A stretch of 64,000 nucleotides of DNA from Shewanella dokdonensis. Lineage in GTDB: Bacteria; Pseudomonadota; Gammaproteobacteria; Enterobacterales; Shewanellaceae. Every line of letters starts with the position of its first letter. The first letter of the stretch is position 1. The stretch spans positions 806,001-870,000 of the forward strand of contig NZ_CP074572.1 of the NCBI RefSeq assembly GCF_018394335.1, in the 5' to 3' direction. Of the stretch, positions 11,752 to 42,389 are shown one piece after another. Below the pieces are notes generated by a model. That model ran no database searches and was not told where the DNA came from. It was given only the letters and a program-made list of their open reading frames with translations. Both the position numbers and the translations under genes were made by a program.

Positions 11752-11795
11752 TTACTATATCAATACTCTATAGAATGTATAATGCAAAGTTCAGA

Positions 11796-11869
11796 TGCCT
11801 CATACTGGCACTAATTTTAGAACTAGAATTCATGACAGTATGAGATCAATTGGAACACATTGTTAGGCA
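11796..11869 (-). repeat. attC-like recombination site A
   Basis: On the minus strand it starts GCCTAACAATGTGTTC, the usual R'' core of an attC (GTTAGGC on plus, 11862-11868). It contains a 9-bp perfect inverted repeat (CTCATACTG at 11799-11807, CAGTATGAG at 11836-11844) with outer TGCCT/AGGCA arms. It starts 4 bases after the stop of the 140-residue gene. Its R'' is the exact complement of the GTTAGGC at the other end of that cassette (12310-12316), as expected for an integron cassette. Confidence 0.6.
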
Positions 11870-11872
11870 TTT

Positions 11873-13772: not shown

Positions 13773-15945
13773 TTATGCAGTAGCGGCCGCTGGCCTGGCG
13801 TCCTCCACAGCATGGCGTAAGCGAGCTTTCATCTCGCTGTAGACCTGTGCCGCATAATTCTCTGCCCAGGTCTGATCCTCGATAGCACTGACATTAGCTG
13901 CACAGTACTTGGTTTCTGGCGTTTTTGAGGTGGGGTCCAGGTTATCCTGGGTCAACTCATTGCAGGCGCCAACCCACCACTGATAAGTCATGTACACGGC
14001 ACCACGGTTGATGCGGTCGCTGACATTAGCGCGACTGATCACCTTGCCGCGCCGTGAAGCAACCCACACCAGTTGTTGATCTTTGATGCCAAGTGCCTGA
14101 GCATCGGCAGGATTGATGTTGACCAGCCCAGGTTCATCCGCCAAGGTTTTCAAGGCGGCACAGTTACCTGTCATAGAGCGGCAGGAATAGTGTCCCACTT
14201 CACGAACGGTACACAGTACCAGCGGAAATTCTTCGTCGGTCAGTTCAGCAGGTTTGCGCCATTGGGTGGCAAACAACTGCCCTTTACCGCTAGGTGTGGC
14301 AAATTTATTGTCGGTATACAGCACTGGCGTACCTGGATGATCCAGTGTTGGACATGGCCACTGTACATGACCAAATTCGCCCATTTTTTCGTAAGTTGCG
14401 CCGTAATACAGTGGGCACAATTCACGCAGTTCATCCCAAATCTGCTGGTTGTTGTCGTAGTGCATTGGGTAACCCATTTCAGTGGCGATCAGTGAAATGA
14501 TGTCCCAGTCACGTTTAACGTTGTATTTAGGTTCAATGGCTTTTTCGAAACGTTGGAAACCGCGGTCAGCACAGGTAAATACGCCACCGTGTTCACCCCA
14601 GGAAGTTGCCGGCAGGATCACGTCCGCAGCTTCGGCGGTTTTGGTCATGAAAATGTCCTGTACCACCAGCAAATCCAGCGCTTCAAGACCCTTGCGTACC
14701 AGGCTTAAATCGGCTTCGGTCTGCAACGGATCTTCACCCATGATGTAATAGGCTTTGACTTTGCCTTCTAGCGCTAGATGTGGCACTTGGGTGATACGAA
14801 CGCCAACGTCTTTATCCATGGATTCTGGATCTATGCCCCACGCCTTAGCAAATTTAGCACGGACAGCGGGATCGATAACTTTCTGGTAGCCGGGGAATAA
14901 GTCTGGCAGTACCCCCATATCACAGCCACCTTGCACATTGTTCTGACCACGAACGGGAGCCACACCCGCGCCATGGCGACCAAGGTTGCCAGTCAGCAAT
15001 GCTAAGGTTGACAGACTCTTAACGGTTTCGGTGCCCTGACCAAACTGAGTCACGCCCATGCCCCAACAAATTACCGATGCGGGAGAGGAAGCATAGGTAC
15101 GCATCGCTTGGCGAATATCCTGGGCGCTGACGCCGGTAATGGCTTCAACTTTTTCAGGAGCATAGTCTTTGACTACATCCCACAAGCTGTCGAAACCTTC
15201 GGTGTATTTGGCCACATAGTCTTTGTCGTAGAGGTTTTCTTCCAGCAAGGTGTAGATAAAAGCGTTGACCATCACCACGTTACAACCGTTGTTCAGTTGC
15301 AGATGTTGGTCAGCAATACGGGCGGCTTCAATGCGGCGTGGATCGCACACGATGATCTTGGCACCATTCTGTTTGGCCTTCACAATGCGGCGGGCCACAA
15401 TCGGGTGAGAATCGGCGCTGTTGTAACCAAAGATCAACAGACATTTAGCCTGTTCCAGATCTTCGATGGAAACGCTCATGGCACCATTGCCTAAGGTTTC
15501 ACGCAACCCGGCAACTGATGGGCCGTGGCACACACGGGCACAGCAGTCGACGTTATTGCTGCCAAGCACCGCGCGGGCGAACTTTTGCATTACATAATTG
15601 GTTTCATTACCTGTGCCGCGGGAAGACCCGGTAGTCATAATGGCGCGGGCACCGTGTTTTGCCTTGATTTCGGCAAAACGTTTGGCCACGTATTTGATGG
15701 CTTCATCCCAAGATACTGTCTCAAATGGGCCACCTTTTTCACGGCGGATCATCGGCTCGCGCATGGGGAGTCAGCAGTTTAGTATCGTTGAGGAAATCCC
15801 AGCCATAGTAACCTTTAAGGCATAGTTCGCTTTGGTTGGTGGCACCTGCGGCTGCTTCTGCACGGATAATACGGCCGTTATCCACCACCAGTTTCATTTT
15901 GCAGCCCGCACCGCAGTACGGACAAACTGTTGTCACTTTTTCCAT
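13773..15945 (-). pseudogene. fdhF: Formate dehydrogenase H alpha subunit, cysteine form, frame broken as sequenced
   Basis: A molybdopterin oxidoreductase of about 724 residues of the FdhF type, which oxidises formate to CO2 and feeds electrons to a HydN/Hyf-type partner. The start is the ATG at 15945 (MEKVTTVCPYCGAGCKM), whose CxxCxxxC binds a 4Fe-4S cluster. The catalytic site reads CCARVCHGPSVAG, with Cys codon TGC at 15528-15530 where E. coli FdhF has selenocysteine. The C-terminal molydopterin dinucleotide-binding domain (about 590-715) is complete. The frame slips at the C/G run 15765-15768 (LLTP|MREPMIRR). Cytoplasmic, no Tat signal. It forms an operon with hydN 22 bp upstream and ends at a strong terminator. 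Paralogue of the Sec gene at 24844-27020. Confidence 0.85.
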
Positions 15946-15967: not shown

Positions 15968-16513
15968 CTAAACACTGAACCCAACACCGGTATCCAGTGC
16001 GGTTCGTCTGCGTTTATCTGCACTCAGCATTGCCAAATCGTCACGATCGACACATCTGAGCGCCTCGGTCGGACAAACTTCGATACAGGCCGGGCCTTCT
16101 GGGCGGTCGTAGCAAAGGTCGCATTTGTTTGCCTGGGCTCTTTCCCTCAGGACATTGACGGCTGCGCCTGTGTTGCGCACTACCGGGTAGGTCACCACTT
16201 CCATCGCACCGTATGGACAAGCCACCACACAAGTCTTGCAACCGATACAACGTTCTTGCTGTACCTGCACAAAACCGTGGGCGCGGCGGATAGCATTATT
16301 GGGGCAGACATTGGCGCAAGGTGCATCTTCGCACTGACGGCACTGGGTCGCAGTGCTAATAGTCGCCCCTTTTACAACATGGATCCGCGGGGTAAAATTT
16401 ATCGCACTAAGTGCGGTAACATCCCCATCAACACGATGCGCAACGGCACAGGCTACCTCACACGTACGGCAGCCAATACATTTGTTAGCATCGGCAAGAA
16501 TAAAGCTGTTCAT
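15968..16513 (-). CDS. hydN: HydN-type 4x[4Fe-4S] electron transfer protein
   Basis: 181 residues. Start chosen at ATG 16513 (MNSFILADANKCIGCRTCEVAC), with the same length and start as its paralogue at 27041-27586. Four cysteine clusters are visible: CIGCRTCEVAC, CRQCEDAPCANVCP, CIGCKTCVVACP and CDLC..PEGPACIEVCP, giving four 4Fe-4S clusters. It should carry electrons from the formate dehydrogenase encoded downstream to a hydrogenase or other acceptor. It is the first gene of a two-gene operon behind a sigma54-like promoter and TTCGACA/TGTCGAA upstream sites. Confidence 0.88.
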   Translation of the reverse strand: MNSFILADANKCIGCRTCEVACAVAHRVDGDVTALSAINFTPRIHVVKGATISTATQCRQCEDAPCANVCPNNAIRRAHGFVQVQQERCIGCKTCVVACPYGAMEVVTYPVVRNTGAAVNVLRERAQANKCDLCYDRPEGPACIEVCPTEALRCVDRDDLAMLSADKRRRTALDTGVGFSV

Positions 16514-24843: not shown

Positions 24844-27020
24844 CTACAACGCCACGGTTGCCGGTTTGGCATCTTCTACCGCACTGCGCAGACGCGCCTT
24901 CAGATCCTGATAGATCTGCTCCGCATGGCTTTCTGCCCAGTTCTGATCGTCAATCGATTTCAGGGTTACCGCACAGTACTTGGTCTCGGGCGTATTAGTG
25001 ACCGGATCCATATTTTCCTGCGTTAGTTCGTTACAGGCACCGACCCACCATTGGTAAGTCATGTACACTGCTCCGCGATTGACGCGTTCGTTAAAGTTGG
25101 CGCGGGTAATCACTTTTCCGCGACGGGATTCAACCCACACCAGCGCCTGATCCTCAATGCCCAGTTGCCGTGCATTATCCGGGTGGATCTGCACAAACCC
25201 GGGTTCATCAGCCAAGGCTTTCAGCGCCGCACAGTTACCCGTCATCGAGCGACAAGAGTAATGGCCCACTTCACGAACGGTACTCAGTACCAGCGGGTAA
25301 TCCGGCGTTGTCAGCTCACCCGGTTTACGCCACTGATGAGTCAGCAGTTGCCCCTTTCCTGAAGCAACGGCGGTGAACTTCAAATCTGTGTAGAGGATTG
25401 GCGTCCCCGGATGTTCCAGCGTTGGACATGGCCACTGGATATGCCCCAGTTCGCCCATCTTCTCGTAGGTAACACCATAGTAAATCGGACACAGTTCTCT
25501 GAGTTCATCCCAAATCTGCTGATCATTATCATAGTGCATTGGGTAACCCATCTCAGTAGCAATTAACGAGATGATTTCCCAGTCACGTTTAACGTTGTAC
25601 TTAGGTTCCACCGCCTTATAGAAACGTTGGAAACCACGGTCACAGCAGGTATAAACACCACTGTGTTCCCCCAGGAAGTCGCTGGCAAAATCACATCTGC
25701 CATTTCGGCGGTCTTGGTCATAAAGATGTCCTGCACCACCAGTAAATCCAGCGCTTCTAAGCCCTTGCGAACCGAACTGCTATCCGCTTCTGTCTGCATG
25801 GGGTCTTCGCCCATGATGTAATAGGCTTTGACTTTGCCTTCCATTGCCAGATGCGGTACCAGTGACAAACGCACTCCCGGCTGTGGATCCATCTGCGCCG
25901 GGTCAATACCCCAAGCGTTGGCGAATTTCTCGCGGATAGCCGGATCAGCCACTGACTGGTAGCCTGGGAACAGATCGGGCAGCACGCCCATATCACAAGC
26001 GCCCTGGACATTGTTTTGTCCACGTACTGGCGCGACACCCGCACCTGCTCGGCCAAGATTGCCAGTGAGCAAGGCCAACGCCGCCAAGCTCTTAACAGTT
26101 TCGGTGCCCTGACCGTACTGCGTGACCCCCATGCCCCACATGATCACTGCGGATTCTGCCCCAGCGTAGGTACGCATGGCTTGGCGGATCTGCAAAGCGG
26201 GGACGCCGGTGGCTGTTTCTACCGCTTCTGGCGCATAGTCTTTCACCACATTCCACAGGCCGTCGAAGCCTTCGGTGTACTTGGCAACAAATTCTCTGTC
26301 GTACAGTTCTTCTTCAATCAGGGTGTAAATAAAGGCGTTGATCAATGCCATGTTGCTGCCGTTATGCAGTTGCAAGAACTGGTCAGCAATACGTGCGGTT
26401 TCAATCTTACGTGGGTCGCACACCACGATTTTGGCCCCTTTCTGATGCGCTTTAACAAGACGCCGAGCCACTATCGGATGGGAATCCGCACCGTTATAAC
26501 CAAACACAAACAGGCATTTTGAATTTTCAATATCGTCCAACGAGACGCTCATAGCGCCGTTGCCCAAAGTAGCGCGCAGACCTGCGACGGATGGGCCGTG
26601 TCAGACTCGAGCGCAACAATCGACGTTATTAGTGCCGATCACTGCGCGAGCAAATTTTTGCATCACATAGTTGGTTTCGTTACCTGTGCCACGGGAAGAA
26701 CCTGTGGTCATGATGGAACGCGGACCAAACTTGTCTTTGATTGCTGACAAACGGTGAGCGACGAATTTAATCGCTTCATCCCAGGACACAGTTTCAAACG
26801 GCGCCCCTTTACTGCGACGGATCATCGGCTCACGCAAACGTGGTGTCAGCAGTTTGGTGTCATTGAGGAAGTCCCAGCCATAATAGCCTTTGAGGCACAA
26901 TTCCCCTTGGTTGGTGTAGCCATTTGCGGCTTCGGCGCGGATAATCTTGCCGTTATCCACCACCAGATTCATCTTGCATCCCGCTCCGCAATACGGGCAT
27001 ACAACGGTTGCTTTTTCCAT
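24844..27020 (-). pseudogene. fdhF: Selenocysteine-containing formate dehydrogenase H alpha subunit; UGA read as Sec, plus a frameshift as sequenced
   Basis: A full-length FdhF of about 725 residues. The frame from ATG 27020 (MEKATVVCPYCGAGCKMNL) reaches TGA at 26601-26603 in the context VDCCARV-U-HGPSVAG, exactly the selenocysteine site of E. coli FdhF, and continues in frame with LRATLGNGAMSVSL. The TGA is therefore a Sec codon and not a stop. A separate frame break lies at the C run 25668-25672 (TSWG|EHSGVYTCCDRG); one more base restores it. The N-terminal 4Fe-4S site, the molybdopterin domain and the C-terminal dinucleotide-binding domain are all present. It oxidises formate to CO2 for the Hyf hydrogenase encoded just upstream. 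In operon with hydN 20 bp away. Confidence 0.88.
26573..26603 (-). promoter_or_regulatory. Selenocysteine UGA with candidate SECIS hairpin
   Basis: Sec codon UGA at 26601-26603. Just after it the mRNA segment CGUCGCAGGUCUGCGCG (26573-26589) folds with a GCA/UGC stem around a GGUC loop, matching in place and loop the E. coli fdhF SECIS (GGUUGCAGGUCUGCACC). The position of the E. coli bulged U is a C here. The Cys paralogue does not keep this loop. Confidence 0.75.
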
Positions 27021-27040: not shown

Positions 27041-27586
27041 TTAAGAGTAGAGCTGTGCCCCGGCATCCAGTGCGGCGCGGCGGCGTTTTTCGGCACTCAT
27101 GGCCTCAAGTTCATTGCGGTCAATACATTTGAGTGCTTTTGTCGGACAAACTTCGATACAAGCCGGCCCTTCTGGGCGGGTGTAACAAAGGTCACACTTG
27201 TTGGCCTGGGCTTTTTCAACCAAGACGTTAACGGCAGCGCCGGTATTGCGCACTATCGGATGCGTTACCACTTCCATTGCACCGTAAGGACAAGCCACTA
27301 CGCAGGTTTTACAACCGATACAGCGGTCTTGCAGTACATGCACAAAGCCGAGTTCACGTTGGATAGCATTATTGGGACAAACGTTAGCGCAAGGAGCATC
27401 TTCACACTGGCGGCAAGCCGTTGCGGTGCTGATATCGATCCCTTTGACCACGTGGATGCGGGGATTGAAGTTTACAGCACTGAGCCCTGTCACATCCCCG
27501 TTGGGGCGATGAGCAACAGCGCAGGCGACCTCACAGGTGCGGCAACCTATACACTTGTTGGCATCAGCGAGAATAAAACGATTCAT
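27041..27586 (-). CDS. hydN: HydN-type 4x[4Fe-4S] electron transfer protein
   Basis: 181 residues, nearly the same as the protein at 15968-16513, with four 4Fe-4S cysteine motifs (CIGCRTCEVAC, CRQCEDAPCANVCP, CIGCKTCVVACP, CDLC..PEGPACIEVCP). It should pass electrons from the Sec formate dehydrogenase to the Hyf complex. First gene of a two-gene operon. Its promoter region is squeezed between its start and the hycI stop, and carries the sigma54-like element and palindromes listed separately. Confidence 0.88.
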   Translation of the reverse strand: MNRFILADANKCIGCRTCEVACAVAHRPNGDVTGLSAVNFNPRIHVVKGIDISTATACRQCEDAPCANVCPNNAIQRELGFVHVLQDRCIGCKTCVVACPYGAMEVVTHPIVRNTGAAVNVLVEKAQANKCDLCYTRPEGPACIEVCPTKALKCIDRNELEAMSAEKRRRAALDAGAQLYS

Positions 27587-27775: not shown

Positions 27776-28279
27776 TCAGCAACGCTCACCTTCGGCCGTC
27801 AGTTGCGGGATCTGCCGCCACTCGTCATCCGCGAGTTTCTGGTACAGCGCCGCCACCGCCTGACTGACAGGAGGCGTCATCGGATAACAAAAACCTACTA
27901 TGTCGGGCTGAATGCCAATCATCACCACTTCATCCACCGCGTCACGCAAATCATCAATCAGATAATTGAGCGGCATGCTGTGGGTGCTCATCAGCATCAT
28001 TTCGCCAATGCTGTCAGGATCTACCAGGCGGATTTCACCGGGATTAAGCCCCATTTCCGTGGCATCTACCACGACCAACAATTTTGGAGCCAGTTCGCGG
28101 ATATGCACGGTTTCGGTTTCTGGGGCGCTGCCACCATCCACCACCTGCCAGCCATAGATTGGCCGATCGGCCAACTGCTGTGCCAGTAATGGACCGGCAC
28201 CATCATCGCCCATCATGCTGTTACCCACACACAACAGCACCTTGGCTGTGCGTTCGGCGTCTGAACTAGCGTTAGTCAT
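27776..28279 (-). CDS. hycI: Hydrogenase maturation protease HycI
   Basis: 167 residues. VLLCVGNSMMGDDGAGPLLAQ, VVDATEMGLNPGEI and STHSMPLNYLI are the nickel-recognition motifs (Asp, Asp, His) of HycI endopeptidases. It clips the C-terminal extension from the hydrogenase large subunit after nickel insertion. Its start overlaps the end of the hycH/hyfJ gene by 8 bases, so translation is coupled. In E. coli hycI belongs to the hyc operon, and hyf lacks it, so this operon is of mixed type. Confidence 0.88.
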   Translation of the reverse strand: MTNASSDAERTAKVLLCVGNSMMGDDGAGPLLAQQLADRPIYGWQVVDGGSAPETETVHIRELAPKLLVVVDATEMGLNPGEIRLVDPDSIGEMMLMSTHSMPLNYLIDDLRDAVDEVVMIGIQPDIVGFCYPMTPPVSQAVAALYQKLADDEWRQIPQLTAEGERC

Positions 28280-28676
28280 TGAGTCTCCTGACGATCAGAT
28301 GAATTGCAGGTTCGTTCTGGATCATCTCCAGCATGGTCATCAGTTGATCGCGCCAGTGCAGGATCTCGTCATCAACATCACCGCGCATGGCGGCCAGCCC
28401 TTCGGCCAGCATCACCACATGAGTGCTGTTGATCACGATTTCACCGTACTTAGGAATGCCGGCCAATTTCTGGCGGGCGGGCTCATCAGGAATGGCATCC
28501 AGCCACTCCTGATAACGCGGTAACGGGCAGGTTAATGCGGGTTTAAAACAGTCAATCACCCCGAGGTGATGGCCGATGGCCAAACCGTAATACACCAGCT
28601 GTTGCGATTCAGGTTTGGCATCCTTGTCATCGACAAATTTCTGATTGAGGATGAAAAAGGTGACCGATTCGCTCAT
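28272..28676 (-). CDS. hyfJ: Formate hydrogenlyase maturation protein HycH/HyfJ
   Basis: 134 residues of the HycH family ([52 protein letters not shown]). HycH-type proteins are needed for making active formate hydrogenlyase but are not part of the final complex; the exact step is unknown. The start overlaps the hyfI stop (ATGA), and the end overlaps hycI. Confidence 0.85.
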
Positions 28677-29446
28677 GCCCGTAGTGCTCCTGTAACCTGT
28701 TGTAATTGGTCGATGATCTCGCTCAGCCGTGGATCATTCTGCATGCTCAGATACTGCGCCACAGCGGTATTGCTATCCGGCGTTACTAGCAGTTCCAAAT
28801 ACTTATCGGCAATTTGCCGTCCGTATCGGTAACCCGCTAATTCACGCGCTTTACGCTCTACTACAACCCGCAACTGCGGTGCCACTTGCGGATGACGCAA
28901 CTGCGCAGGATGACTGTCAATGGCCGAAGGTTCACGGGCGTGGATCTTCTGCTCTAACAATCCCAGCGCCATAGCGAAACCGTACAGGGTTGCCGCAGGT
29001 GTTGGTGGGCAGCCGGGGATGTAAACATCCACAGGGACAATTTTGTCAGTACCACCCCAAACACAGTAGAGATCATGGAAGATACCACCACTGTTGCCGC
29101 AAGCGCCGTAGGAAACGATGATTTTGGGATCCGGCGCAGACTCATAAGCTCTTAAAGCTGGTACGCGCATAGCGCGAGTAACCGCACCTGTGTACAGCAA
29201 GATGTCGGCATGCCGTGGCGATGGCACCACTTTGATGCCGAAACGCTCGGCGTCGAACAGTGGCGAAATGCTGGCAAAAATCTCAATTTCACAGCCGTTA
29301 CAACCACCACAGTCGACGCGGTAAACATAGGCGGAACGACCGATGTTTTTCAGCAAAGACGCCTTCATCTTGGCGATGCTTTCATCCACGGTCAGTGGGA
29401 TCGGCATGCCGTTAGCGTCACGTGTGTCTGGTAAAGTTAAGCTCAT
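28673..29446 (-). CDS. hyfI: Formate hydrogenlyase [NiFe]-hydrogenase small subunit HyfI
   Basis: 257 residues, NuoB/HycG/HyfI family. The proximal 4Fe-4S cluster ligands are seen in [26 protein letters not shown] and [10 protein letters not shown]. It hands electrons from the Fe-S chain to the NiFe site of HyfG. The start overlaps the hyfH stop by 4 bases (ATGA). No Tat signal, as expected for a cytoplasm-facing hydrogenase. Confidence 0.9.
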
Positions 29447-29991
29447 AGCACTGGCTCCCGTAATAACCGACTCAGGTTAATGCGCTGTGACTGGGTGATA
29501 TTGTGTGCGCGTTTGCAATGCGGGCAGGTGTTAAGCTGCTGGTGCAGCGCTTCACGATCTTCGAACTGGCCGGTAGCCATCAGCAGATCTTCGGCATATT
29601 GCAGTTCTTTGGCGACGGCAAACGGCTTGCCACATTCCGTACAAGTTGCCAGCGGATATGCTGACTTTTGATACAGATCTTCTTTACGCCACACCGCCAT
29701 CTGTACTTCTTGCGTCAGCACGATGGCATGGGTCGGACACACCTCTTCACAACGGCCGCAGAAGATGCAGCGGCCAAGAAACAACGACCATTCCTGCATA
29801 CCGCTAACCAGATTGGTCTGCACGGTTAATGCATTGGCCGGACAGGCATTCATACAAGCAGCGCAGGCAATACATTGGGCGGGGTTCTGCTCCGGTTTAC
29901 CACGGAAGTTTTTGTCTACCTCCGGCGGGGTCAACGGATCGGTGCCAGTAACCACTCCGGTCTGTAGCGCCTTTTTCAAATATTTCAGCAT
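29443..29991 (-). CDS. hyfH: Formate hydrogenlyase ferredoxin-like subunit HyfH
   Basis: 182 residues, NuoI/HycF/HyfH family. Two 4Fe-4S motifs ([12 protein letters not shown] and [12 protein letters not shown]) lie in the first half. The second half has a CxxC..CxxC pair ([16 protein letters not shown]) as in HycF/HyfH. It links electron input to the hydrogenase small subunit. 18 bases downstream of hyfG. Confidence 0.9.
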
Positions 29992-30009: not shown

Positions 30010-31740
30010 CTACTTCAGTGGGGAATTGGTACGCTCGATGGCGTAACGTTCCACCTCTTTGTAGGACACGGTCTTGCTAGAGCGCTTGTTGACGTCAACA
30101 AAAGTGACGCGGTCAGTGCAGGAGTAGCAAGGGTCGAGGCTGCCGATGATCAGTGGCGCATCAGAGACGGTATTGCCCCGCAGCATGTAGCGCAGCGTAG
30201 TCCAGTTGGCATAAGTCGCCGCCCGGCAACGCCAGCGGAACAGCTTCTGGTTATCACCTGTCATACTCCAGTGGATGTCATCACCACGTGGGGCTTCGGT
30301 AAAGCCGAGGGCAAATTTATGGGGCTGATAGGTAAAGCCATCCACCTGCAACGGCCCGCCGGGCAGATTGTCGAGACCAAAATCGATCATATTGAGGCTG
30401 GTATAAACTTCATTGATGCGCACTTTGAGGCGCGATAGCACGTCACAGCCCTGTTCACTGTGAACTTTCATCGGCAACAGGCCATAGCCCACAAAGGGGT
30501 GATCGGCACGGGCATCACGGGCATGGCCACTGGCGCGCACCATAGGGCCAACGTTACTGAAATCACGGGCGATTTGCGGGTCAAGAATACCCACACCAAC
30601 GGTACGTTCTTCCATGTTGGGGGTACTGAGCAACACATCGACCAGATCGTTCACTTCGCGGCGCATCTCCTGCGCCAGCTTACGGGTGGCGAGCATGTCA
30701 TCTTTGAGCAAGTCACGGCGCACCCCACCAATCAGGTTCAAGCCATAGGTCTTACGGGAGCCAGTGAGGATTTCTGCCATCTTCATGGACACTTCACGCA
30801 CCCGGAAAAACTGCATGAAACCGGAGTCGAAACCAGTGAAATGACAGGCCAAGCCGAGGTTTAACAAGTGGCTGTGCAAGCGTTCAACTTCCAGCAAAAT
30901 AGCGCGGATCATCTGCGCCCGCGCAGGCACCTTAATCCCCAGCGAGTTTTCTACCGAGGTGGTGTAAGCGGTGCTATGGGCAAAACCACAGATGCCGCAA
31001 ACACGGTCTGACAGGAAGGTCACTTCGTTGTAGCCCATACGGGTTTCTGCCAGTTTTTCCATGCCACGATGCACATAGAACAAGCGGTAGTCCGCATCGA
31101 CAATGCGTTCACCATCGACAAACAGCCGGAAATGCCCGGGTTCGTCAGAAGTCACATGCAGTGGGCCGATGGGCACAATGCGGTTTTTATCATTGCCCAG
31201 TTCATTGATAAATGGATAGGTTTCGCGATCTGTGGTGGGGGCTGGACGCTGGCGATAATCCATGCTGTCTTTACGCAGCGGGAACAGATCTTCTGGCCAG
31301 TCATCTGGCAGCACCAAACGCCGTTCATCTGGCAGGCCAACGGGATGCAGGCCATACATATCACGGACTTCACGTTCGCCCCACACGGCGGCAGGCACCC
31401 GCGGGGTCACCGCCGGATATTCGAGAGTGTTGGCATCCACCAACACCTTCACCACAATCCAGCACTTCTCGCCCGCTTCCATTGACAGCACGTAATACAC
31501 GCCATAATGGTCATTGAGCGTGCGTTCATCATTACCAAACAGCACGCTCAACCAGCCGCCCTGTTGGTAATACAGGTATTCCACCACTTCCGGCAATGAC
31601 CCGGTTTTTACGGTAATGGTGACCTGATCCTGTGTCTGTCTTTCCTCTTCCAGAATGGCGTTGGGAAACTGTGCTCTGACCCGAGCCAGATAACCGGCAG
31701 CTTTATGGTCGGCATTGGCAACAGTGTTTTGATTAGTCAC
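30010..31740 (-). CDS. hyfG: Formate hydrogenlyase [NiFe]-hydrogenase large subunit HyfG
   Basis: 576 residues from GTG 31740, chosen because GGAG lies 8 bases upstream and it overlaps the hyfF stop by 8 bases; a longer frame to 31854 would run far into hyfF. The N-terminal part (about 1-170) is NuoC-like and the rest NuoD/HycE-like. The NiFe ligands are [10 protein letters not shown] and DPCYSCTDR near the C-terminus. The tail after the last Cys motif is the extension that HycI removes. It reduces protons to hydrogen at the cytoplasmic face. Confidence 0.9.
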
Positions 31741-33352
31741 GGTACATCTCCTGCTGGGAAGGGGTTGATTGAGAAGCTGTGGTGTCGACCGCCGGGGTAT
31801 TTGACATACCCGGCACAGACAACGCCCGTAGCTCGGCTTCGCCGGCTTTATCACCGTTCAGCACAATAGTGGTGGCCTGTTGTAGCAACTGTGTCACTGG
31901 CTGTGGAATATGTGTGCCCATCAGCAACATGAGCGCTAACAGCAACGCCAATGGCGCAGTGGTCAGCCAGCCGAGTTCACCTTTGCTGACATTGTCAGGC
32001 TGTTTGCCCAGCACTGACATCACCACCATGCGCACTAACCCGGCCAACACCACTGTCAGCAATGCCAGCAGCAGCAATACCAGCCACAGGTGCCCGGCAT
32101 GGATACCGGCAGTCACTGTCATAAACTCACTGAGGAACACATTGAATGGTGGCATGCCACCGAGTGCCAATGCGCCGCCAGCCAGTAACGCGCCAGAGAG
32201 TGGCGCTACGCGCAGCAACCCTTTCACGGCATTCATGTCGCGGGTGCCATATTTCAGCAACACGTTACCTGAACCACAAAACAGCAGGGTTTTGGCCAAG
32301 CTGTGGTTTAAGGTGTGCAGCATGGCCGCCAGAATACCCAGCGGGCCGCCAATCCCTAACGCCACCGCAATCAGTCCCATGTTTTCCACGCTGGAATAGG
32401 CCAGCAGACGTTTCATGTCGCGCTGCACTAGGATAAGGAAAGCAGCGACCGCAACCGATAAGAAGCCAAACACCAGTAACAACCGTTGTGGGAACTCATT
32501 GCCAATGGCGGCGCTGATCAGGATGTAATAACGCACAATCACCAGCAGTGCACAGTTGAGCAATACGGCAGATAACAGCGCGCTGGTAGGGCTCGGCGCC
32601 TCACTGTGCGCATCCGGTAGCCAAGCGTGCATCGGGAACAACCCGGTTTTGGTTCCAAACCCAATCAGGATGAAGATAAACGCTAAATGCATCAGCGTGC
32701 TATCCAGTTCACCCGCATGTTGCAGCACTTCAGTCCAGAAGATCGCATCGCCAGGATTGGCCATCACATTAGCGGCATTGGAGTACACCAACACTGTACC
32801 GTAAAGGCCAAAAGCCACCCCGACGGTGCAGATAATGATGTATTTCCAGGCGGCTTCCAGTGATGACTGCTGTCCATAAAGCCCCACCAGAAATGCTGAA
32901 CTGAGCGTGGTGGCTTCAATCGCCGCCCACATCACAATCAGGTTGTTGCTGGTGATCACTAACAGCATGGTGAACAGGAACAGATGGAAAAAGCCGTAGT
33001 AACTGCAAAGTGAGCCGACACTGACTTCACCATCGCCGACTTCGTGGTTCATATAACCGACAGAGTAGATGCCAGTGATAAAACCGACGATGCCAAGAAT
33101 CGCCAGGAACAGCGCACTCAGGCCATCAAGATGCAGCCAGTTGTGGGCGGCAAGCAATTCGCCTTGACGATATACCGTCCACACGGCCACCAGTGCAGTC
33201 ACCAACAGCAAACTGCTGCCGATAACATGTACCGTGGTAACCAGCTTTTGCGCGCCATTGCCTGACAACCGACAGGCAAACGCCAGTAAAGAGGTCAGCA
33301 ATGGTATCGCCAGCAGGGTGATAAAAAGATCCAATGTAGCCATGTTGTTCAC
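31733..33352 (-). CDS. hyfF: Hydrogenase-4 membrane subunit HyfF (antiporter-like)
   Basis: 539 residues, about 14 helices, NuoL/M/N-HyfF/HycC proton-antiporter family. [21 protein letters not shown] contains the conserved Lys and the HAWLPDAH motif, and another Lys region ([16 protein letters not shown]) follows. It probably couples hydrogen production to ion movement. The start overlaps the hyfE stop (ATGA). Confidence 0.88.
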
Positions 33353-33999
33353 CCTTTCAATGAGATCAGTTTCTGAACATCCAGCGTGTTCATGGTGCGG
33401 TAAATCCGCCGCGCCATTAGCGCCATGATGATCACCGCGAAAATGGCGTCAGTGGCAATACCGATTTCCACCAGCTCCGGAGCACTATGTGCCAGCAATG
33501 CCAGCGTCAGGTGCGAACCGTTCTCCATCAGACAGTAACCAAACACCTGCTTGAGAATGTTGCGCTGACTGACAATGCACAGCAGCCCAATGAGGAAGTG
33601 TCCCAACGATACCGCCAACACAGGTTTCAATTCAGTCAGCATTGGCAATTGCACTGGTTGCACCGCAAAGTAGCTCACCAGCACAATCACCGCAGCAATC
33701 ATGAACAGAGCCGCCGTACTGACGACACCGCCATCGGCTTTAGGATCGGCGAGTTTACAGAAAGCGCGATACATGATGAGCGGCACCAACACAACTTTGG
33801 TAATAAAGGAGCTGATGGACCATAGATACAGCTCATGGGCACCGAACATATTCGCCAAGGTGATGAAAATGCCCACCAACACCAGCGATTGCAGCGCGTA
33901 GAACCCGGCAGATAGCGTCGGCTTTTTCACGGCAATCACCAGCATGGAGGTGACAATCATCAGTCCGGCGAGGTTATTGACAAGCAAAGTTCCAGTCAT
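33349..33999 (-). CDS. hyfE: Hydrogenase-4 membrane subunit HyfE
   Basis: 216 residues from ATG 33999 ([20 protein letters not shown]), same length and start as E. coli HyfE. Several helices; related to NuoK/MrpC-like subunits. HyfE is a mark of the six-subunit membrane arm of hydrogenase 4 and is absent from hydrogenase 3, so this is a Hyf-type complex. Confidence 0.9.
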
Positions 34000-34012: not shown

Positions 34013-35451
34013 CTACGCCAGCCAGGTTGCCGCAATAACGCTGGAGATCAGCGACATCACAATCAACACCACCAGCACTATCTTCATCGACATTGGCACC
34101 GCTGAAGCGTTAGCCACCTCGGCGGAAGGCTCACCCGGCACGGTACGGCCGAACCACAGCAGCAACCAGGCAAAGCTGGCAACTGATTCAATCAGCGCAA
34201 TGATCAGTAATGGCAATAACCACCAGTGCGCCTGACTCAACTCAAATCCCGCCGCAAACAGCGGGAATTTACTGAAGAAGCCGTTAAACGGTGGTACCCC
34301 GGCAATCGCCATTGCCGCCACGCAGAAGCCAATACCCAACAGCGGCATACAGCGCAACAAGCCTTTCAGCCGTGGCAACATACGGGTACCACAGGCATAG
34401 CTGATGGCCCCGGCCACCAAGAAGAACAGACTCTTGGCGTAAGCGTGGTTGAAGATGTAAGCAATACCGGCATCAAACGCCATTTTCGAATTGAAGATGG
34501 ACATTGACAGTGCCAAGAAGATGTAAGACAACTGGGCGATAGTGGAGTAAGCCAGCAGACGTTTCATGTCTTTCTGCGGCAGATACATCAGGAAGCCATA
34601 CACCATGGTGATGGTCGCCATGACCGCCCCAACCACCCCGATTTCATGGGGCACAGTGCCTGCCGACATAATGGCGCGAGCAAAGATGTAAACGCCCACT
34701 TTCACCATAGAGGCGGCGTGCAAATAAGCACTGACCGGCGTTGGCGCTTCCATCGCATCAGGCAGCCACATATGCAGTGGCAGTTGTGCTGATTTCCCCA
34801 AGCCGCAAACAAGACACCACCGAAGACCACTAGCTTGTCGGCATCACTGAGCTGACTGATAGCGGTGAGTTCAAAGGTGCCGGTTTTGGCAAATAGCCAA
34901 GCCGCCGCCAGATACAAACCGACAGACGCGATGTGAGTCACCAGCAAGGCTTTCAAGGCTGAACGCAATGACTTGGGATTCTGGTAGTAGCCAATCAACC
35001 CCCAGGAACAACCGCCAGTAATTTCGAAAAACAGCAGTTGTCCGAGAATGGTGGATGACAACGTCAACCCCGCCATCGCCCCAATGAACACCAGCAACAA
35101 GGCGTAATAACGGTTGCTGCCTTCATGGGGATGTTCCCGGTTACCGGTAGTGAGATAACCACAGGAGTACAGGCTGATCAGAAAGCCGAGAGACACCACG
35201 GCAAAACCAATCAACAGACTGACGCGATCCATCACAAAACCAAACAGCTGGGTATGCCCGTAACTGTACAGGGTGAACGTCACATCGGTTTTACCGCTGT
35301 CCAGATAGGCATAGGCCAGAGCCGCCATACCCAAAGTGGCCAGCAGCGCGAACAGCGTGCACAGCACTTTGGCGTGTCGCTGTGGCATCAACGCGATCAA
35401 CAGTGCGCCAATAAACGGCAGCAGCATGGTCGCAAGCGCAATATTCTCCAT
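34013..35451 (-). pseudogene. hyfD: Hydrogenase-4 membrane subunit HyfD (antiporter-like), frame broken as sequenced
   Basis: A protein of about 479 residues in two frames: 35451 to about 34800 (MENIALATMLLPFIGALLIA) and about 34800 to 34013 (GKSAQLPLHMWLPDAMEAPTPV). The joint is one base short at 34796-34803; restored it reads AALGKSAQLPLHMWLPDA, the conserved Lys and His-Trp-Leu-Pro-Asp motif of NuoM/NuoL-type antiporters. It is one of the three antiporter-like subunits (B, D, F) of the Hyf membrane arm. Confidence 0.88.
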
Positions 35452-35467
35452 AAGAATGCTGACTCCT

Positions 35468-36418
35468 TTATAGCCCGGTCAGATAGAACATGAACGCCAG
35501 CGCCGCAACGCCGAAGCCCATCCAGGTCACCCGTCCGGTCAACAGGAAACGACCACGGGCAAGCGTGTTTTCAATCACCGCCGCAATCACAAACACCAGC
35601 ACCAGTTTGACCACAAAGGCCAAGGTTCCCAGCAGAATGCTGGCAAAGGTGAGGGTGTCGGCTTTGCCAAACGGCACAAAGATAGCGAGGAACAATCCAG
35701 CAACCACCACCTGTTTGAGGCTGAGGCCCCATTTCACCAGCGCCAGACCGGCACCAGAGTATTCAGATAGCGGGCCTTCTTGCAGTTCCTGCTCAGCTTC
35801 GGCCACATCGAACGGGATTTTGCCCATTTCGATAAATACCGCGAAGCCACAGGCCAGCAGCGCCATGGCAGTCGCAGTGGGTGCCGCCCATTGCTGTGAT
35901 GCCAATGTGCTGCTGATGTTGTCGATATTGGTAGAACCCACTATCAGCGCCACCACCAACAGCCCCAGCATCAGAATGGGTTCCACCAAGATCCCCAGTG
36001 TCAACTCACGGCTGGCACCAATACCGGCAAAGGTGCTGCCAGAGTCGAGCCCCGCCAGTGAAAAGAAAAAGCGGAAAATGGCGAACAGATACAATAAGGT
36101 GATCACATCACCACCCGCCGCCATCGGTGATGCCTGCGTTACCAGCGGCAAGGTCATCGCCACCAGCAACATGGTGCCAAGCAGCACAAACGGCATTACC
36201 CGGAACACTCCGCCACAGTTGCTTGGTGCAACTTCCTGACGGGTCAGCAATTTCATAATGTCGCGGTATTCCTGCAATACACCGGGGCCTTTACGGCAGT
36301 GCATCCTGGCGCGGATCACCCGCGACAGACCAGACAACAGTGGCGACACGGCCATTAACAGCACCGCTTGCAGCAGACCTGCAATCAGTGCCAGTACCAA
36401 GGAATTTTGCATCATCAT
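35468..36418 (-). CDS. hyfC: Hydrogenase-4 membrane subunit HyfC (NuoH-like)
   Basis: 316 residues with eight helices, NuoH/HycD/HyfC family. GLSRVIRARMHCRKGPGVLQEYRDIMKL and the acidic loop ETGKIPFDVAEAEQEL-like segment (MGKIPFDVAEAEQELQEG) are typical. It is the membrane anchor where the hydrogenase arm docks. Confidence 0.9.
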   Translation of the reverse strand: MMMQNSLVLALIAGLLQAVLLMAVSPLLSGLSRVIRARMHCRKGPGVLQEYRDIMKLLTRQEVAPSNCGGVFRVMPFVLLGTMLLVAMTLPLVTQASPMAAGGDVITLLYLFAIFRFFFSLAGLDSGSTFAGIGASRELTLGILVEPILMLGLLVVALIVGSTNIDNISSTLASQQWAAPTATAMALLACGFAVFIEMGKIPFDVAEAEQELQEGPLSEYSGAGLALVKWGLSLKQVVVAGLFLAIFVPFGKADTLTFASILLGTLAFVVKLVLVFVIAAVIENTLARGRFLLTGRVTWMGFGVAALAFMFYLTGL

Positions 36419-36428: not shown

Positions 36429-38452
36429 TTAGGCCATGGTGACGATCAGCAGCACCACAAGCGCTGCGACCACATACAGGCAGTAGGCACGAAAATCGCC
36501 ATACTGAATCCACTGCACCAGCCGACTGAGTCGTTGCACACCGTTCACTACCGGCATCACCAGATGTTCATCCCATACCGGTTCCACCTTGGCGGCGGCA
36601 TCCGTAGTGGCATCCAGTGACCGTTGCAACATGGGGGCAGGGTCGAGTGTCTTACGCAAGCGATAGAGCGGTGCAAACAACACCCGCAACGGTTGCGCAA
36701 AACTCCCGGCAGACAGCGCCATCGGCGCTTCATAACCGTAACCACAAGCCCAAGGAGTACCTCGACGAGTGAAATGCAATCGATCACTGCCACCCTTGAT
36801 GCTGTAGATAACCAGCGGCAACAACGGCAGCGCCAGCAGCAGAATGAACAACAGTGGCGTGTTGAGGCTGGTTTGCGCCGCATCCCCAGGGAAGACACTG
36901 GCACCACTGGCCATCGCAACGGCGGTGGTATGACTGAGTTGTGCGGCGATATTGGTGATCACCGGCGCAATGACAGACGCCCCAAGCCCTAGCAGCACAC
37001 ACAGGATTGCCAGTAGCCACATGGCACAGGTCATACTGAATGGCACTTCACGGGCATTGGCGGCTTTTTCACTACGCGGCGCCCCACAGAAGCAGATGCC
37101 ATACACTTTGACAAAGCACATGGCAGCCAGCGCCCCGGTAATCGCCAACATGACGATGGCGGCGGGACCGGCCAGTTTTAGGCCCACACTGCCGTCGTGG
37201 CTCATGGTGAACAGGGACTGATAAGTGAACCACTCACTGACAAAACCATTCAGTGGCGGCAGTGCGGAAATTGCCATACAGCCGATGAGGAACGCCACTG
37301 CAGTACGCGGCATCAGCTTGGCAAGTCCTCCCATCTGCTCCATATCCTTAGTCTGCGTGCGATAGATAACCGCGCCCGCGCCTAGGAATAACAAACCTTT
37401 GAACAGTGCATGGTTGATCAGGTGGTACAAGCCCCCAGTAACCCCAGTAGCGCCAGCAGTGGGTGATGGGTGGCAATACCTATCATCCCAGCTCCCACCC
37501 CCATCAAGATAATGCCGATGTTTTCAACGGTGTGATAAGCCAGCAAGCGTTTGATATCGTGTTCGGCCAACGCATACAACACACCGAGCACTGAAGATAC
37601 CGCCCCAAAAGCCAGTACCACTATGCCCCACCACACTTCGGTCGCGCCCAGTAAGTCAATGCCCACCTTGATAATGCCGAAGATACCTATCTTCACCATC
37701 ACCCCAGACATCAACGCAGATGCATGCGAAGGTGCTGCCGGGTGAGCGCGAGGCAACCAACCGTGCAGCGGTAGCATCCCGGCCTTGGCACCAAAGCCAA
37801 AGAACGCCAGCAAAAACACCGCAGAGGCTTCACCCACTGGCAGATGCGCGTCACGGAAAGCAGCGAAATCCAAACTACCGGCATGGCGATACAGCAGGAA
37901 GAAACCTAGCATGATCAGCACGGAACCCGCATGCGCGATAAAGAAGTACAGCAGCCCGGCACTCACCGCTTCATCATCCTGCTCGGAGATCACCAAGAAG
38001 TAGGAACTGAGCGACATCGCTTCAAACAGCACAATAAAGTAGAAGGCGTTATCCACCGCCACCAGCGCCACCATGGAAGCGATAAACAGGTTCATGAAGA
38101 ACCCCATCGCCCAGGCGCCTTTTCCGCGATATTCCTGCAGATAAGCAAATGAATACAGCGAAGTCACCACCACTAGCACAGAAATGACCAGCACCATAAA
38201 CGCTGCCAGCATATCCAGTCGCAGCGTCAGATGGGCAAACGCCGCAAATGGCCCGGCGTAATCTGCCGTGATAACCGCGCCATCCAGCAACACCGGCAGC
38301 GCGGCAATGACACCACACACCCCGCCAACAAGTGATAGCCAACCGCTAGCACGAATCGCCAACGCCTCATGACGGCAAAGCAATAATGACAACAGGGCGC
38401 CAACCATATAGAGCGCCAACGAGAGTCCCAACCAGCTTAATGGCGTCATCAT
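36429..38452 (-). pseudogene. hyfB: Hydrogenase-4 membrane subunit HyfB (antiporter-like), frame broken as sequenced
   Basis: About 674 residues (E. coli HyfB 672) in two frames: 38452 to about 37436 (MMTPLSWLGLSLALYMVGAL) and about 37430 to 36429 (YHLINHALFKGLLFLGAGAV). The joint is the five-C run 37432-37436; one more base gives LLGLLGGLYHLINHALFKG. It carries GAKAGMLPLHGWLPRAH, the conserved antiporter Lys/His motif. The start is taken at ATG 38452, as the longer frame runs inside hyfA. Start and corrected hyfA stop overlap. Confidence 0.88.
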
Positions 38453-39074
38453 AATTTTTGCCCCCCTCAGTTGCAGCCGCACCAGTAGCAGACTGTGGCT
38501 GCCAGTTGCCAGCATTGGGCAGCGACGCCAACTGCCGTTTGCGTGCAGAAGCTTTAGCAAGCGCTTCGTCACTCACCAGCACAATGGCGCTCGTCGGGCA
38601 GGTATCGATACAGGCGGGGCCTTCTGGCCGGAAGCTACACAAGTCACACTTCACGGCGACCGCTCGGATCCCGGGGCGCCAGTCCAACAGAGGGCTGACA
38701 GCGCGAGGAGGACGAGGAGCCGGTGCCGCCAGTGGCGTACAGACATCCAATGGAATATCCAGTGGTTTGGAACCACTGAGGGTAATGGCACCGAACGGAC
38801 AGGCGATAGCACACAGCTTACAGCCAATACACAGGCTTTCGTTGAGTACAATGGCTTTATCCTCACGGCGGATGGCGTTGACGGGGCACACTGTGGCACA
38901 GGGGGCGTCCTCACACTGATGGCACATCTGCGGCGCCGACTCTTCGGCACTGCGCACCACCACTAGTCTTGGCTCGGTCTGTAACCCTTGTAGCCGGTGT
39001 GCCTCTGAACACGCCGCCATGCAGGTATTGCAGCCGATGCACAGTTGCGGATCGGCAATGACAAAACGGTTCAT
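38367..39074 (-). CDS. hyfA: Hydrogenase-4 Fe-S subunit HyfA
   Basis: Polyferredoxin like HydN/HycB/HyfA: CIGCNTCMAACSEAH, CHQCEDAPCATVCP, CIGCKLCAIACP and CDLCSFRPEGPACIDTCP give four 4Fe-4S clusters. The frame as written has 235 residues and runs 85 bases into hyfB. One extra base in the six-C run 38461-38466 would end it at TEGGQKL with the stop overlapping the hyfB ATGs, giving about 208 residues like E. coli HyfA (205). So the last 28 residues are probably an artefact. It receives electrons from formate dehydrogenase. First gene of the operon. Confidence 0.85.
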   Translation of the reverse strand: MNRFVIADPQLCIGCNTCMAACSEAHRLQGLQTEPRLVVVRSAEESAPQMCHQCEDAPCATVCPVNAIRREDKAIVLNESLCIGCKLCAIACPFGAITLSGSKPLDIPLDVCTPLAAPAPRPPRAVSPLLDWRPGIRAVAVKCDLCSFRPEGPACIDTCPTSAIVLVSDEALAKASARKRQLASLPNAGNWQPQSATGAAATEGGKNYDDAIKLVGTLVGALYGWRPVVIIALPS

Positions 39075-40244: not shown

Positions 40245-40292
40245 GTGCCCCGGAACAATGGCCTTTATGTTGTTGTAATAGAACGTGGAACC

Positions 40293-42389
40293 ATGGCACA
40301 GCGATTTCAATATCTTAGTGAACAGAAAAGCTGCCTGAGGCTGACGCATCAACTACTGGATCAAGCCAGTGTTGAAACTATGCTGCAAAGCCTGAATCAG
40401 CACTTTGTTGAAACAGGGTTACCTTATGACTGTTCGGTGCTGGTTGATGGCCCGATGGCAGCACCACGGCTTTATCTTCAAGCTGATGATGGTAACGTCT
40501 GTTGTTTTGACGAAGCCTCCTTATTACAAAATGGCCCGTTACGTATTGTGCAGGCCAGCAGAACCGTGCTGCATCTGAGTTGTGAAGACTATCGCCAGCG
40601 TTATCCGCGCTTGAGCGTTAGCATCCGCCCCCAAGCCTTTGGCGACTATCTAGCACTGCCGATTTTGAATCATCGTCGGCTGATGGGACTGCTGGAAATT
40701 ACCCGCCATGATACCGATGCTTTTGATGATGACGACATCGCCCACCTGGAACTGGTTGCTGAGTCCATGGGCGTCGCCTTAGAACATTTGCAATCCCGTC
40801 TGGCTCTTAGCTTTGAGCAAGGGCAACTGTGTGAAGAGCGCGATGATTTCCATGTGTTGGTAAATGTCACCAATGCGGTGATCACCGAACGCAGCGTCGA
40901 ATCCTTGGTAGATAAAATCGCCAGAGAAATTCACTGTTACTTTGGCATCAGCGCCATTAGCGTTTGTCTGCCAGAGACAGATCCCAACAATCTGACACTC
41001 TATAACGCCTTTTTTGTCCAGCCGGGGAAACCACAGGAAGCCCAAATTCATATCAGCGCCTCACGCAGTATCTGCCAGCAGGTGCTAGAAAGTGGCGAAA
41101 TTCAGTTACGGCAATTGTCAAAAGACGAGCCGCTGGCCTGTAACGAAACTCAGCTATTTAACCTGTGGCCCGCCGAATCACACCTGTTGTGTCTGATCCC
41201 GATAAAATTTGCCGGACAAGTGCTCGGGGTGCTGAAACTGGCGCAGGCCGACGAAGCGTGCTTCAAAGGCTCGCGCTTACAACTGCTCGCACAAGTGGCC
41301 GAACGAACCGCCATTGCCGTAGACAACGCCCGCGCCTATCAGGAAATCAACCGTCTGAAAGATCACCTAGTGCAGGAAAACAACTATCTGAGTGAACAGG
41401 TAGAAAGTCTCAGCCATCAGCAATTTGATGAGATCATCGGCCGCAGCAAGTCCATTACCGAAGTCTTGAAACAAGTGGAACTGGTGGCAAAAACTGACTG
41501 TAGTGTGCTGTTGCTAGGCGATACTGGCACCGGAAAAGAAGTGTTTGCCCGCGCCATTCATCGTCTCAGTCCTCGCAATGGCAAGCGCATGATAAAAATG
41601 AATTGCGCCGCCATGCCTGCGGGGTTACTGGAAAGTGATCTGTTTGGCCATGAAAAAGGCGCCTTTACCGGTGCCAGCAAAGAACGCATGGGACGTTTTG
41701 AACTGGCCCATCAGAGCAGCCTATTCTTAGATGAAGTCGGTGATATGCCGCTGGAACTGCAACCGAAACTGCTCCGGGTGTTACAGGAGCAAGAATTTGA
41801 ACGGGTGGGTGGCAATCGGCTGATCAACGTTGATGTGCGCCTGATTGCCGCGACTAACCGCGATCTGAAACAGATGGTGACTGACAAAGAGTTTCGTTCC
41901 GATCTGTTTTATCGTCTCAATGTTTTCCCTATCCGCTTGCCACCGCTAAGTGAACGCCGCGACGATATTCCACATCTGGCGAAATACTTTGTCTTCCGCG
42001 CCAGCAAACATATGGGACGAAACATCGACAGCATCCCATCACGGGTATTGAGGCAGTTGCAAGAGATGGACTGGCCGGGGAATATCCGCGAATTACAGAA
42101 TGTCATTGAACGTGCAGTACTGCTAAGCACAGGTCATGTGCTGCAACTGCCTCCTGAATTGGGTCTATTCGAGGCCGAAGAGGAGTTACAGTTGACACCA
42201 CATGAACCCAAACCACAGCGTAACGCCGAAGAGGATGATGAATATCAACGGATTATTGCCGTGTTGCAGGAAACTAACGGCATCGTCGCGGGGCCACGAG
42301 GAGCAGCACATAAACTGGGCTTAAAACGCACAACTCTACTGTCGCGCATGAAACGACTGGGTATTGATAAAGAAACCGCGCTGGTATAA
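40293..42389 (+). CDS. fhlA: Formate hydrogenlyase transcriptional activator FhlA
   Basis: 698 residues from ATG 40293 (MAQRFQYLSEQKSC); an in-frame GTG at 40245 is less likely. Domain order: N-terminal region, two GAF-type sensory domains (about 20-185 and 195-375; formate sensing in E. coli FhlA), AAA+ sigma54-interaction domain (about 395-625) with Walker A LLGDTGTGKE, GAFTGA sigma54 loop and Walker B LFLDEVGDM, and a C-terminal Fis-type HTH (GAAHKLGLKRTTLLSRM) almost as in E. coli FhlA. It activates sigma54 promoters when formate builds up. Divergent from the hyf operon, whose promoter region carries the proposed sites. Confidence 0.92.
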   Translation: MAQRFQYLSEQKSCLRLTHQLLDQASVETMLQSLNQHFVETGLPYDCSVLVDGPMAAPRLYLQADDGNVCCFDEASLLQNGPLRIVQASRTVLHLSCEDYRQRYPRLSVSIRPQAFGDYLALPILNHRRLMGLLEITRHDTDAFDDDDIAHLELVAESMGVALEHLQSRLALSFEQGQLCEERDDFHVLVNVTNAVITERSVESLVDKIAREIHCYFGISAISVCLPETDPNNLTLYNAFFVQPGKPQEAQIHISASRSICQQVLESGEIQLRQLSKDEPLACNETQLFNLWPAESHLLCLIPIKFAGQVLGVLKLAQADEACFKGSRLQLLAQVAERTAIAVDNARAYQEINRLKDHLVQENNYLSEQVESLSHQQFDEIIGRSKSITEVLKQVELVAKTDCSVLLLGDTGTGKEVFARAIHRLSPRNGKRMIKMNCAAMPAGLLESDLFGHEKGAFTGASKERMGRFELAHQSSLFLDEVGDMPLELQPKLLRVLQEQEFERVGGNRLINVDVRLIAATNRDLKQMVTDKEFRSDLFYRLNVFPIRLPPLSERRDDIPHLAKYFVFRASKHMGRNIDSIPSRVLRQLQEMDWPGNIRELQNVIERAVLLSTGHVLQLPPELGLFEAEEELQLTPHEPKPQRNAEEDDEYQRIIAVLQETNGIVAGPRGAAHKLGLKRTTLLSRMKRLGIDKETALV

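Follow-up and report, generated by a model that had tools for sequence, protein, structure and literature searches.

The subject of this study is fdhF, a gene for formate dehydrogenase H (FDH-H), in a 64,000-nucleotide stretch of the Shewanella dokdonensis genome (NZ_CP074572.1, positions 806,001 to 870,000; hereafter the window). The gene belongs to a predicted formate-hydrogenlyase-type operon (hyf, hycI, hydN, fdhF) and contains an in-frame UGA codon. We propose that its product is very likely a selenoprotein that derives from a cysteine (Cys) FdhF, having regained selenocysteine (Sec) in place of Cys. The selenoprotein itself is of a known kind; what is new is its origin.

The UGA codon, its hairpin and the decoding machinery

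A first-pass annotation of the window placed a TGA at 26603-26601 of the minus strand, in the context VDCCARV-TGA-HGPSVAG, and the minus-strand read bears this out: the triplet is codon 140, ahead of His-Gly-Pro, and is the sole stop between 27020 and about 25.67 kb. The same annotation had the frame continue past the TGA, which holds as far as that point, where a second frame change intervenes and the natural end is not reached. With the TGA and this frame break, fdhF lies in three pieces in the present assembly. The pieces cover positions 1-128, 130-438 and 458-671 of the formate dehydrogenase alpha model TIGR01591 (E values 1e-52 to 6e-127), and because the gene is broken, none of them reaches the whole-protein cut-off. 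An intact orthologue from another species of the genus (genome G005) aligns nearly end to end with Escherichia coli FDH-H (phmmer, 1110 bits). Through this orthologue the TGA falls, as had been claimed for it, on the Sec position of the E. coli enzyme, residue 140, which is modified in PDB entry 1aa6; it is also aligned with the Sec codon of other FdhF genes.

The TGA is kept in the otherwise open fdhF of four more species of the genus, with protein identities of 88-97%. Between the window's gene and the nearest copy (L228), 450 codons show 119 synonymous and 14 amino-acid-changing differences. Given the four further species, conservation of the TGA is far from chance.

Just 3′ of the UGA is a hairpin of the bacterial selenocysteine insertion sequence (SECIS) type. 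When the U of UGA is counted as position 1, the apical stem pairs 18-21 with 26-29 around a loop that starts with GGU, U17 is bulged, and an outer stem pairs 14-16 with 30-32. Covariation was scored over 17 Sec genes with 14 distinct sequences; five belong to the genus, the other twelve to enterobacteria and further genera. The paired cells amount to 84.7%, and the covariation score is 0.355 as against 0.086 in shuffles, with none of 500 as high; 14 cells have a two-sided change, a number that likewise none of the 500 matched. The two-sided changes occur in pair 18-29 (U-A, C-G, A-U) and pair 15-31 (G-C, U-A, C-G). The Sec genes of the genus hold 6-7 of the seven pairs (mean 6.4, n=5), whereas the Cys genes of the genus hold 2-4 (mean 3.5, n=4); the counts in other Cys genes are 2-4 for 21 enterobacterial genes, 3 and 5 for the two of family f9, and 1-4 for 13 others. 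The motif GGTCT stands at the loop start in all 41 Sec rows, compared with two of 45 Cys rows.

The annotation had further required that the Sec machinery be encoded outside the window, and selA, selB, selD and the tRNA-Sec gene (selC) are indeed all found elsewhere in the genome (Table 1). Also as it had stated, the window has no tRNA-Sec or sel gene: it contains no tRNA, tmRNA or Rfam match at gathering score, and the matches of the genome lie beyond it. The sel locus consists, in order, of the alpha subunit of formate dehydrogenase N (FDH-N), FdoH/FdoI-like, FdhE-like, selA, selB, tRNA-Sec on the other strand and FdhD-like, where FdoH, FdoI, FdhE and FdhD are names from a reading of the open reading frames (ORFs) with no family call behind them. 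Its FDH-N alpha gene (L139, 2033-5041) has a TGA of its own and an Rfam SECIS_3 match of 78.5 bits (gathering score 63). The tRNA-Sec gene is antisense within the 3′ end of selB (L139, 10847-10941 of the minus strand, inside an ORF at 9731-10975), and the arrangement is the same in G005 (L214, 10088-10182 within 10048-12060); PMC8124441 mentions it as known from Shewanella and a few Ferrimonas. Among 129 genomes of the genus, 49 have selB (E <= 1e-65) and 10 have a Sec FdhF (E <= 1e-150); selB is present in all 10 of the latter, as compared with 39 of the 119 others. Taken together, the site, the hairpin, the conservation and the machinery indicate that the in-frame TGA is very probably a genuine Sec codon.

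Two further observations concern Sec genes of the genus. FDH-N alpha is also present in the window's genome (G000) both as a Sec copy, beside selAB, and as a Cys copy (L273, broken in this assembly), so that both FDH types are Sec/Cys-paired there. Five genomes, G023 (L136), G001 (L137), G071, G082 and G121, have a Sec FdhF distinct from the window's (64-66% identity) and, some 9-15 kb off, a divergent SelB. In the three contexts examined this gene follows hycI and hydN, in two of them together with hyf genes, and it looks like part of a separately acquired Sec island.

Origin of the selenocysteine codon

For the trees, 86 rows were reduced first to 68 (18 near-duplicate or redundant rows dropped; quick tree) and then to 51 (17 long-branch, outgroup or redundant rows dropped; careful tree, with the Sec codon and the next 16 codons masked). 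In the 51-row tree the five Sec genes of the genus are sister to four Cys genes of the genus (97/93), and the genus genes next join the Cys genes of two family f9 genomes, G282 and G303 (100/100), all of this inside 21 Cys genes (100/100). A tree that keeps the 21 Cys genes as one group is rejected (delta lnL 68.6; p-AU, from the approximately unbiased test, 1.4e-4). The parts of the gene before and after the mask each put the five Sec genes inside the 21, with support by the Shimodaira-Hasegawa-like approximate likelihood-ratio test (SH-aLRT) of 98 and 100. Sec sequences thus cluster with close Cys sequences while more distant Cys sequences lie outside, which is the Cys-to-Sec criterion as worded in the survey of Zhang et al. 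2006 (PMC1794560). In a tree of the partner protein HydN, which is without Sec, the HydN sequences of the genus stand together (98/98) and adjoin those of G282 and G303 (99/98); the HydN that accompanies the G100 Cys copy (L234) was too short to be included.

Protein identities and database scans were also compared. The window's Sec FdhF is 80-81% identical to the Cys enzymes of the genus and of G282 and G303; in the related family f18 it is 72-78% identical to 108 Cys matches and 68-69% identical to 14; and it is at most 68% identical to any Sec FdhF outside its group of five. No TGA occurs in the 122 matches of family f18 (E <= 1e-212; in 121 of 392 sampled genomes), a limit that by design leaves enterobacterial Sec copies unlisted (best 8.8e-211 in the order scan), nor in the 16 matches outside the genus with at least 73% identity among 394 sampled genomes of the order. 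In family f9, two of 12 genomes have a match, both Cys. The scans scored at most four candidates per genome in collections of one genome per species, of which those for f18 and the order were samples, and the E limits (1e-190 for the order, 1e-212 for f18) exclude more distant copies.

The gene order points in the same direction as the tree. A Cys fdhF occupies the same place, after hyfJ, hycI and hydN, in G282, G303, two Pantoea and Serratia grimesii, and the window itself has a Cys fdhF with its own hydN, 11 kb from the Sec gene and outside the hyf operon. The two fdhF genes are 80% identical over the part compared; the pair also occurs in G005, G084 and G100, and only the Sec copy was found in G068. 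In each of 21 comparisons (three pairs with seven outgroups, non-independent; Tajima chi-square 3.0-16.5) the Sec copy has more unique changes than the Cys copy, an excess that would be expected if Sec were derived, and which falls short of proof.

From these sequence comparisons we infer the following course, which comprises the recoding itself, the activity of the enzyme, and the direction and order of events. The enzyme would have arisen from a Cys FdhF ancestor, probably at the same operon position. The hydN-fdhF pair would have been duplicated in this Shewanella-like lineage, one copy remaining Cys outside the operon, while in the operon copy the Cys codon gave way to UGA and a SECIS was acquired; the Sec machinery, linked here to FDH-N, would already have been in the cell. 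UGA codon 140 would now be decoded as Sec by SelB and tRNA-Sec, aided by the hairpin just downstream, and the Sec would serve as a molybdenum ligand. The two fdhF copies may serve high and low selenium.

A number of points weigh against this derivation. The group of 21 Cys genes used in the approximately unbiased test was chosen after the first tree had been seen. The short part before the mask (139 residues) is weak in the exact order (74 and 49 at two forks), and the HydN tree separates the two genus copies poorly. With regard to synteny, the Kosakonia-group Cys genes are flanked by hydN or nothing, without a hyf match, and the 1.5 kb upstream of the G068 gene contain only hydN and no hyf or hycI match. 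As for the hairpin, the count of pairs with two-sided changes (two) was matched in 419 of 500 shuffles, the outermost pair 14-32 is unpaired in 11 of the 14 sequences, and the folding energy is ordinary compared with shuffles (z -0.5 to -1.1), in a test where the Cys-copy fragment began three bases 5′ of the Cys codon. Because the energy test was non-significant, the SECIS argument rests on conservation and two covarying pairs. Incorporation of Sec is predicted from the sequence, and the direction would be less secure if the Cys clade contained a Sec lineage that escaped sampling. Finally, the 30 bases from the UGA onward have an identity of 0.87 to enterobacterial Sec fdhF, as against 0.71-0.74 to the Cys groups.

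The last point gives rise to a different account of the codon, in which a Cys-type gene received UGA and SECIS on a patch of ~30-90 bases whose donor was a Sec fdhF of enterobacterial type; in an alternative form, they are all that is left of a Sec gene whose remainder was replaced by the Cys copy. The SECIS core is of the enterobacterial type, unlike that of the other Sec fdhF in the genus, and of the diagnostic sites outside the SECIS, both of the two just upstream are Sec-like, versus 10 of the 72 others (Fisher p 0.024 on few sites). However, the SECIS is under functional selection, so likeness within it is explicable by convergence; immediately past the core, the codons (LRATLG, LRSTLG) follow the Cys lineage and not LHQSVG; and the matches in the five genomes (E <= 1e-150) include no Sec fdhF of the enterobacterial type. 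We consider such a patch possible, though doubtful. It would be a variant of the derivation from Cys, since the body of the gene would still be of the Cys lineage.

It is a good deal less probable that Sec was retained throughout the lineage and that the Cys enzymes of the Pantoea group, the Kosakonia group, G282/G303 and the genus paralogue lost it independently. In the literature consulted, changes recorded for FdhA run only from Sec to Cys, with seven such events and zero Cys-to-Sec in the counts given by Zhang et al. 2006 (PMC1794560), and the entry for FdhA in a 2026 review stands solely under Sec-to-Cys (PMC13188914); the argument of a 2020 phylogeny is that Sec is ancestral and has been lost repeatedly (PMC7331816). 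In addition, the outgroups are Sec in both the 68- and 51-row trees, and the GGU loop start in 10 of the 21 enterobacterial Cys genes can be read as a remnant. Retention would, however, need at least four separate losses on the 51-row tree, compared with one gain, and a two-state model without gain has a lnL of -20.1 versus -10.8, which is 9.3 log units worse (13.8 with 68 rows). For the node that unites the Sec and Cys genes of the genus, the reconstruction gives Cys at >=0.988, even when gain is made 100 times rarer than loss. None of the 122 closest f18 matches has a TGA, and the Cys genes counted hold 1-5 of the seven SECIS pairs, with only one, from family f9, reaching five.

A broader and more tentative idea is that FdhF, wherever a genome has the Sec machinery, exchanges Cys for Sec and Sec for Cys at similar rates. 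The Sec FdhF of enterobacteria, E. coli among them, might then also have been regained, from an ancestor that had Cys and was linked to hyf, with residue 580 flipping along. The posterior for a Cys state in the shared ancestor is 0.79 to 0.998 with free or equal rates, and <=0.30 if gain is at least 10 times rarer.

Residue 580 (numbering of L104), which corresponds to Ser578 of E. coli when counted on the alignment, is Ser in those four Sec enzymes of the genus whose C-terminal part can be read, that of the window lying beyond the break. All 21 Cys enzymes that the 51-row tree has in the clade carry Cys there. Over the 68 rows the Cys enzymes have 34 Cys and 1 Ser, and the Sec enzymes 26 Ser, 3 Cys, 1 Ala and 1 Asn, with two rows lacking a letter. 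Cys enzymes with Ser are those of Kosakonia sp. S29 (L026, left out of the 51-row tree as redundant) and Serratia marcescens (L030). An independent-pairs test on five pairs was non-significant (sign test p 0.0625-0.5, median 0.125), and columns 717, 416 and 35 correlate more strongly in the same scan, on fewer rows and one to three independent pairs. There is a hint here of a possible compensating second site.

Frame breaks in the assembly

The second break in fdhF, near 25.67 kb, is almost certainly an assembly error, because breaks recur across the sampled stretches of the genome, affect genes that are usually essential, are mostly base losses, and have intact orthologues; the breaks in fdhF, hyfD, selA and selB are part of this background. 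Relative to G005, the window breaks frame at about 37.45, 34.80, 25.67, 21.30, 15.76, 9.44 and 3.25 kb. A wider comparison of sampled stretches covered 496 kb of G000, window included, and 1.26 Mb of G005; it used those G005 ORFs, at least 150 residues long, whose matches showed 75% identity and 85% coverage (8 and 6 ORFs with coverage <85% were excluded). Of 83 such ORFs, 21 undergo a frame change in G000; the 25 shifts fall in 103 kb, about one per 4.1 kb. In the reverse direction none of 98 changes frame, in a test that is one-sided, since a fragment maps to a single frame, and that still shows G005 to be clean there.

The frame-changed genes, for which names were taken from ten of the 21, include those for phosphoglycerate kinase (pgk), adenylate kinase (adk) and transketolase as well as topA, spoT, recG, recD and nusG, the last with its change just behind the start codon. 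Of the non-triplet gaps in the 21 genes and fdhF, 47 of 58 are base losses in G000, and 14 of 42 one-base gaps touch runs of four or more, versus 5.5% of random positions, although a few diverged genes add noise to these counts. The Sec fdhF was added to this set by hand, as its downstream G005 ORF scored best against the window's Cys copy and was therefore uncounted as broken. Intact copies exist of fdhF in G005, G084, G100 and G068, and of selA and selB in G005.

Programmed frameshifting at the second break was considered and set aside, given that orthologues are open there and that similar breaks affect 21 of 83 genes; decay of the Sec system was likewise rejected, since the breaks are found throughout the sampled stretches and affect usually essential genes too. 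That the TGA is a plain stop in a decaying pseudogene is highly improbable: the frame changes of fdhF, selA, selB and hyfD in this assembly would fit, but nusG, adk, topA and pgk break as well, the reverse control is clean, the predominant base losses, often in homopolymer runs, point to assembly error, and the orthologues of four species are open except for the TGA. G000 is a single-contig assembly with uncorrected indels, and gene calls and pseudogene counts taken from it are untrustworthy.

Neighbouring genes and comparison with known systems

The operon and the other features are collected in Table 1. A search for sigma-54 promoters, intended to separate the regulation of the two fdhF copies, gave 62 matches in comparison with 56.7 expected by chance.

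Table 1. Features at and around the Sec fdhF, and Sec machinery genes located elsewhere in the genome (positions with prefix C1)
Feature	Position	Strand	Basis or remark
TGA codon 140 of fdhF, very probably read as Sec	26601..26603	-	frame, alignment, conservation
SECIS-type hairpin	26572..26590	-	apical stem, bulged U (position 17 from U of UGA), GGU loop start
fdhF (Sec copy), first 450 codons including UGA	25669..27020	-	frame breaks at low end
fdhF (Sec copy), C-terminal part	24844..25671	-	another frame; intact orthologues in G005, G084, G100, G068
hydN, ferredoxin-like FDH-H partner	27041..27586	-	NF007658, 308 bits, cut-off 260
hycI, hydrogenase maturation peptidase	27776..28279	-	TIGR00142
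hyfJ/hycH-like	28272..28676	-	NF011664
hyfI-like small hydrogenase subunit	28673..29446	-	NuoB family profile; named by position
hyfH-like iron-sulfur subunit	29443..29991	-	NF009053
hyfG-like large hydrogenase subunit	30010..31854	-	NuoC/D-type profiles on 30010-31734, below cut-offs; named by position
hyfF, hydrogenase 4 subunit F	31733..33352	-	NF005044
hyfE, hydrogenase 4 membrane subunit	33349..33999	-	NF008556
hyfD-like, two frames here, intact in G005	34013..35451	-	named by position; 97-99% identical to G005 orthologue
hyfC-like	35468..36418	-	position only; no NCBIfam match at 1e-30
hyfB-like, two frames here	36429..38572	-	position; fetched part of G005 counterpart open across break
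hyfA-like ferredoxin	38367..39074	-	position and 43% identity to HydN of G005
FhlA/HyfR-like sigma-54-dependent activator	40245..42389	+	NF011958, 828.5 bits, just under 830 cut-off
Second fdhF, Cys copy (TGC at 15530-15528)	13773..15944	-	frame breaks near 15.76 kb, intact in G005
Second hydN, paired with Cys fdhF	15968..16513	-	NF007658, 292.5 bits
selA	C1:2466590-2467948		frame change in this assembly
selB	C1:2467969-2469791		frame change in this assembly
tRNA-Sec	C1:2469850-2469940		85.7 bits, gathering score 47; ARAGORN tRNA-Sec, anticodon tca
selD	C1:1651781-1652701

A literature search found no published description of a Cys-to-Sec regain in FdhA/FdhF, most subscription journals being outside its coverage. 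If the regain is true, the Cys/Sec change in FdhF is not one-way, and a SECIS can be acquired within a conserved stretch that codes for an active site. FdhA/FdhF is described in the 2026 review as the most widespread bacterial selenoprotein and a keeper of the Sec trait (PMC13188914). In G005 and G068, a search for FDH-N with a TGA (E <= 1e-40), which was aimed at no other selenoproteins, found none; the FdhF with the proposed regain is thus the one Sec formate dehydrogenase seen in these two genomes and may be what keeps the Sec trait in them. We also suggest that Sec and Cys FDH-H enzymes 80% alike in one genome form a natural pair for measuring what selenium buys.

A Sec/Cys pair of fdhF genes is also present in the spirochaete Treponema primitia, where both are genes of the spirochaete; in work on termite-gut fdhF the direction of change was reportedly Sec to Cys.

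Among known systems, E. coli FdhF belongs to the same family over its full length and has Sec at the same position, 140. The SECIS core of enterobacterial Sec genes (Citrobacter and others) has a bulged U and a GGU loop start as in the window. The enterobacterial Sec genes differ in that they are <=68% identical to the window's gene, whereas the Cys genes of its clade are 72-81% identical; their residues after the SECIS core are different; and the four that were tested (two Citrobacter, Buttiauxella and Proteus) have no hyf, hycI or hydN match within 4 kb flanks. The hyf-linked Cys FdhF of Pantoea, Serratia grimesii, G282 and G303, on the other hand, share both operon place and clade with the window's enzyme, and differ from it in having a Cys codon, no full SECIS, and Cys instead of Ser at residue 580.

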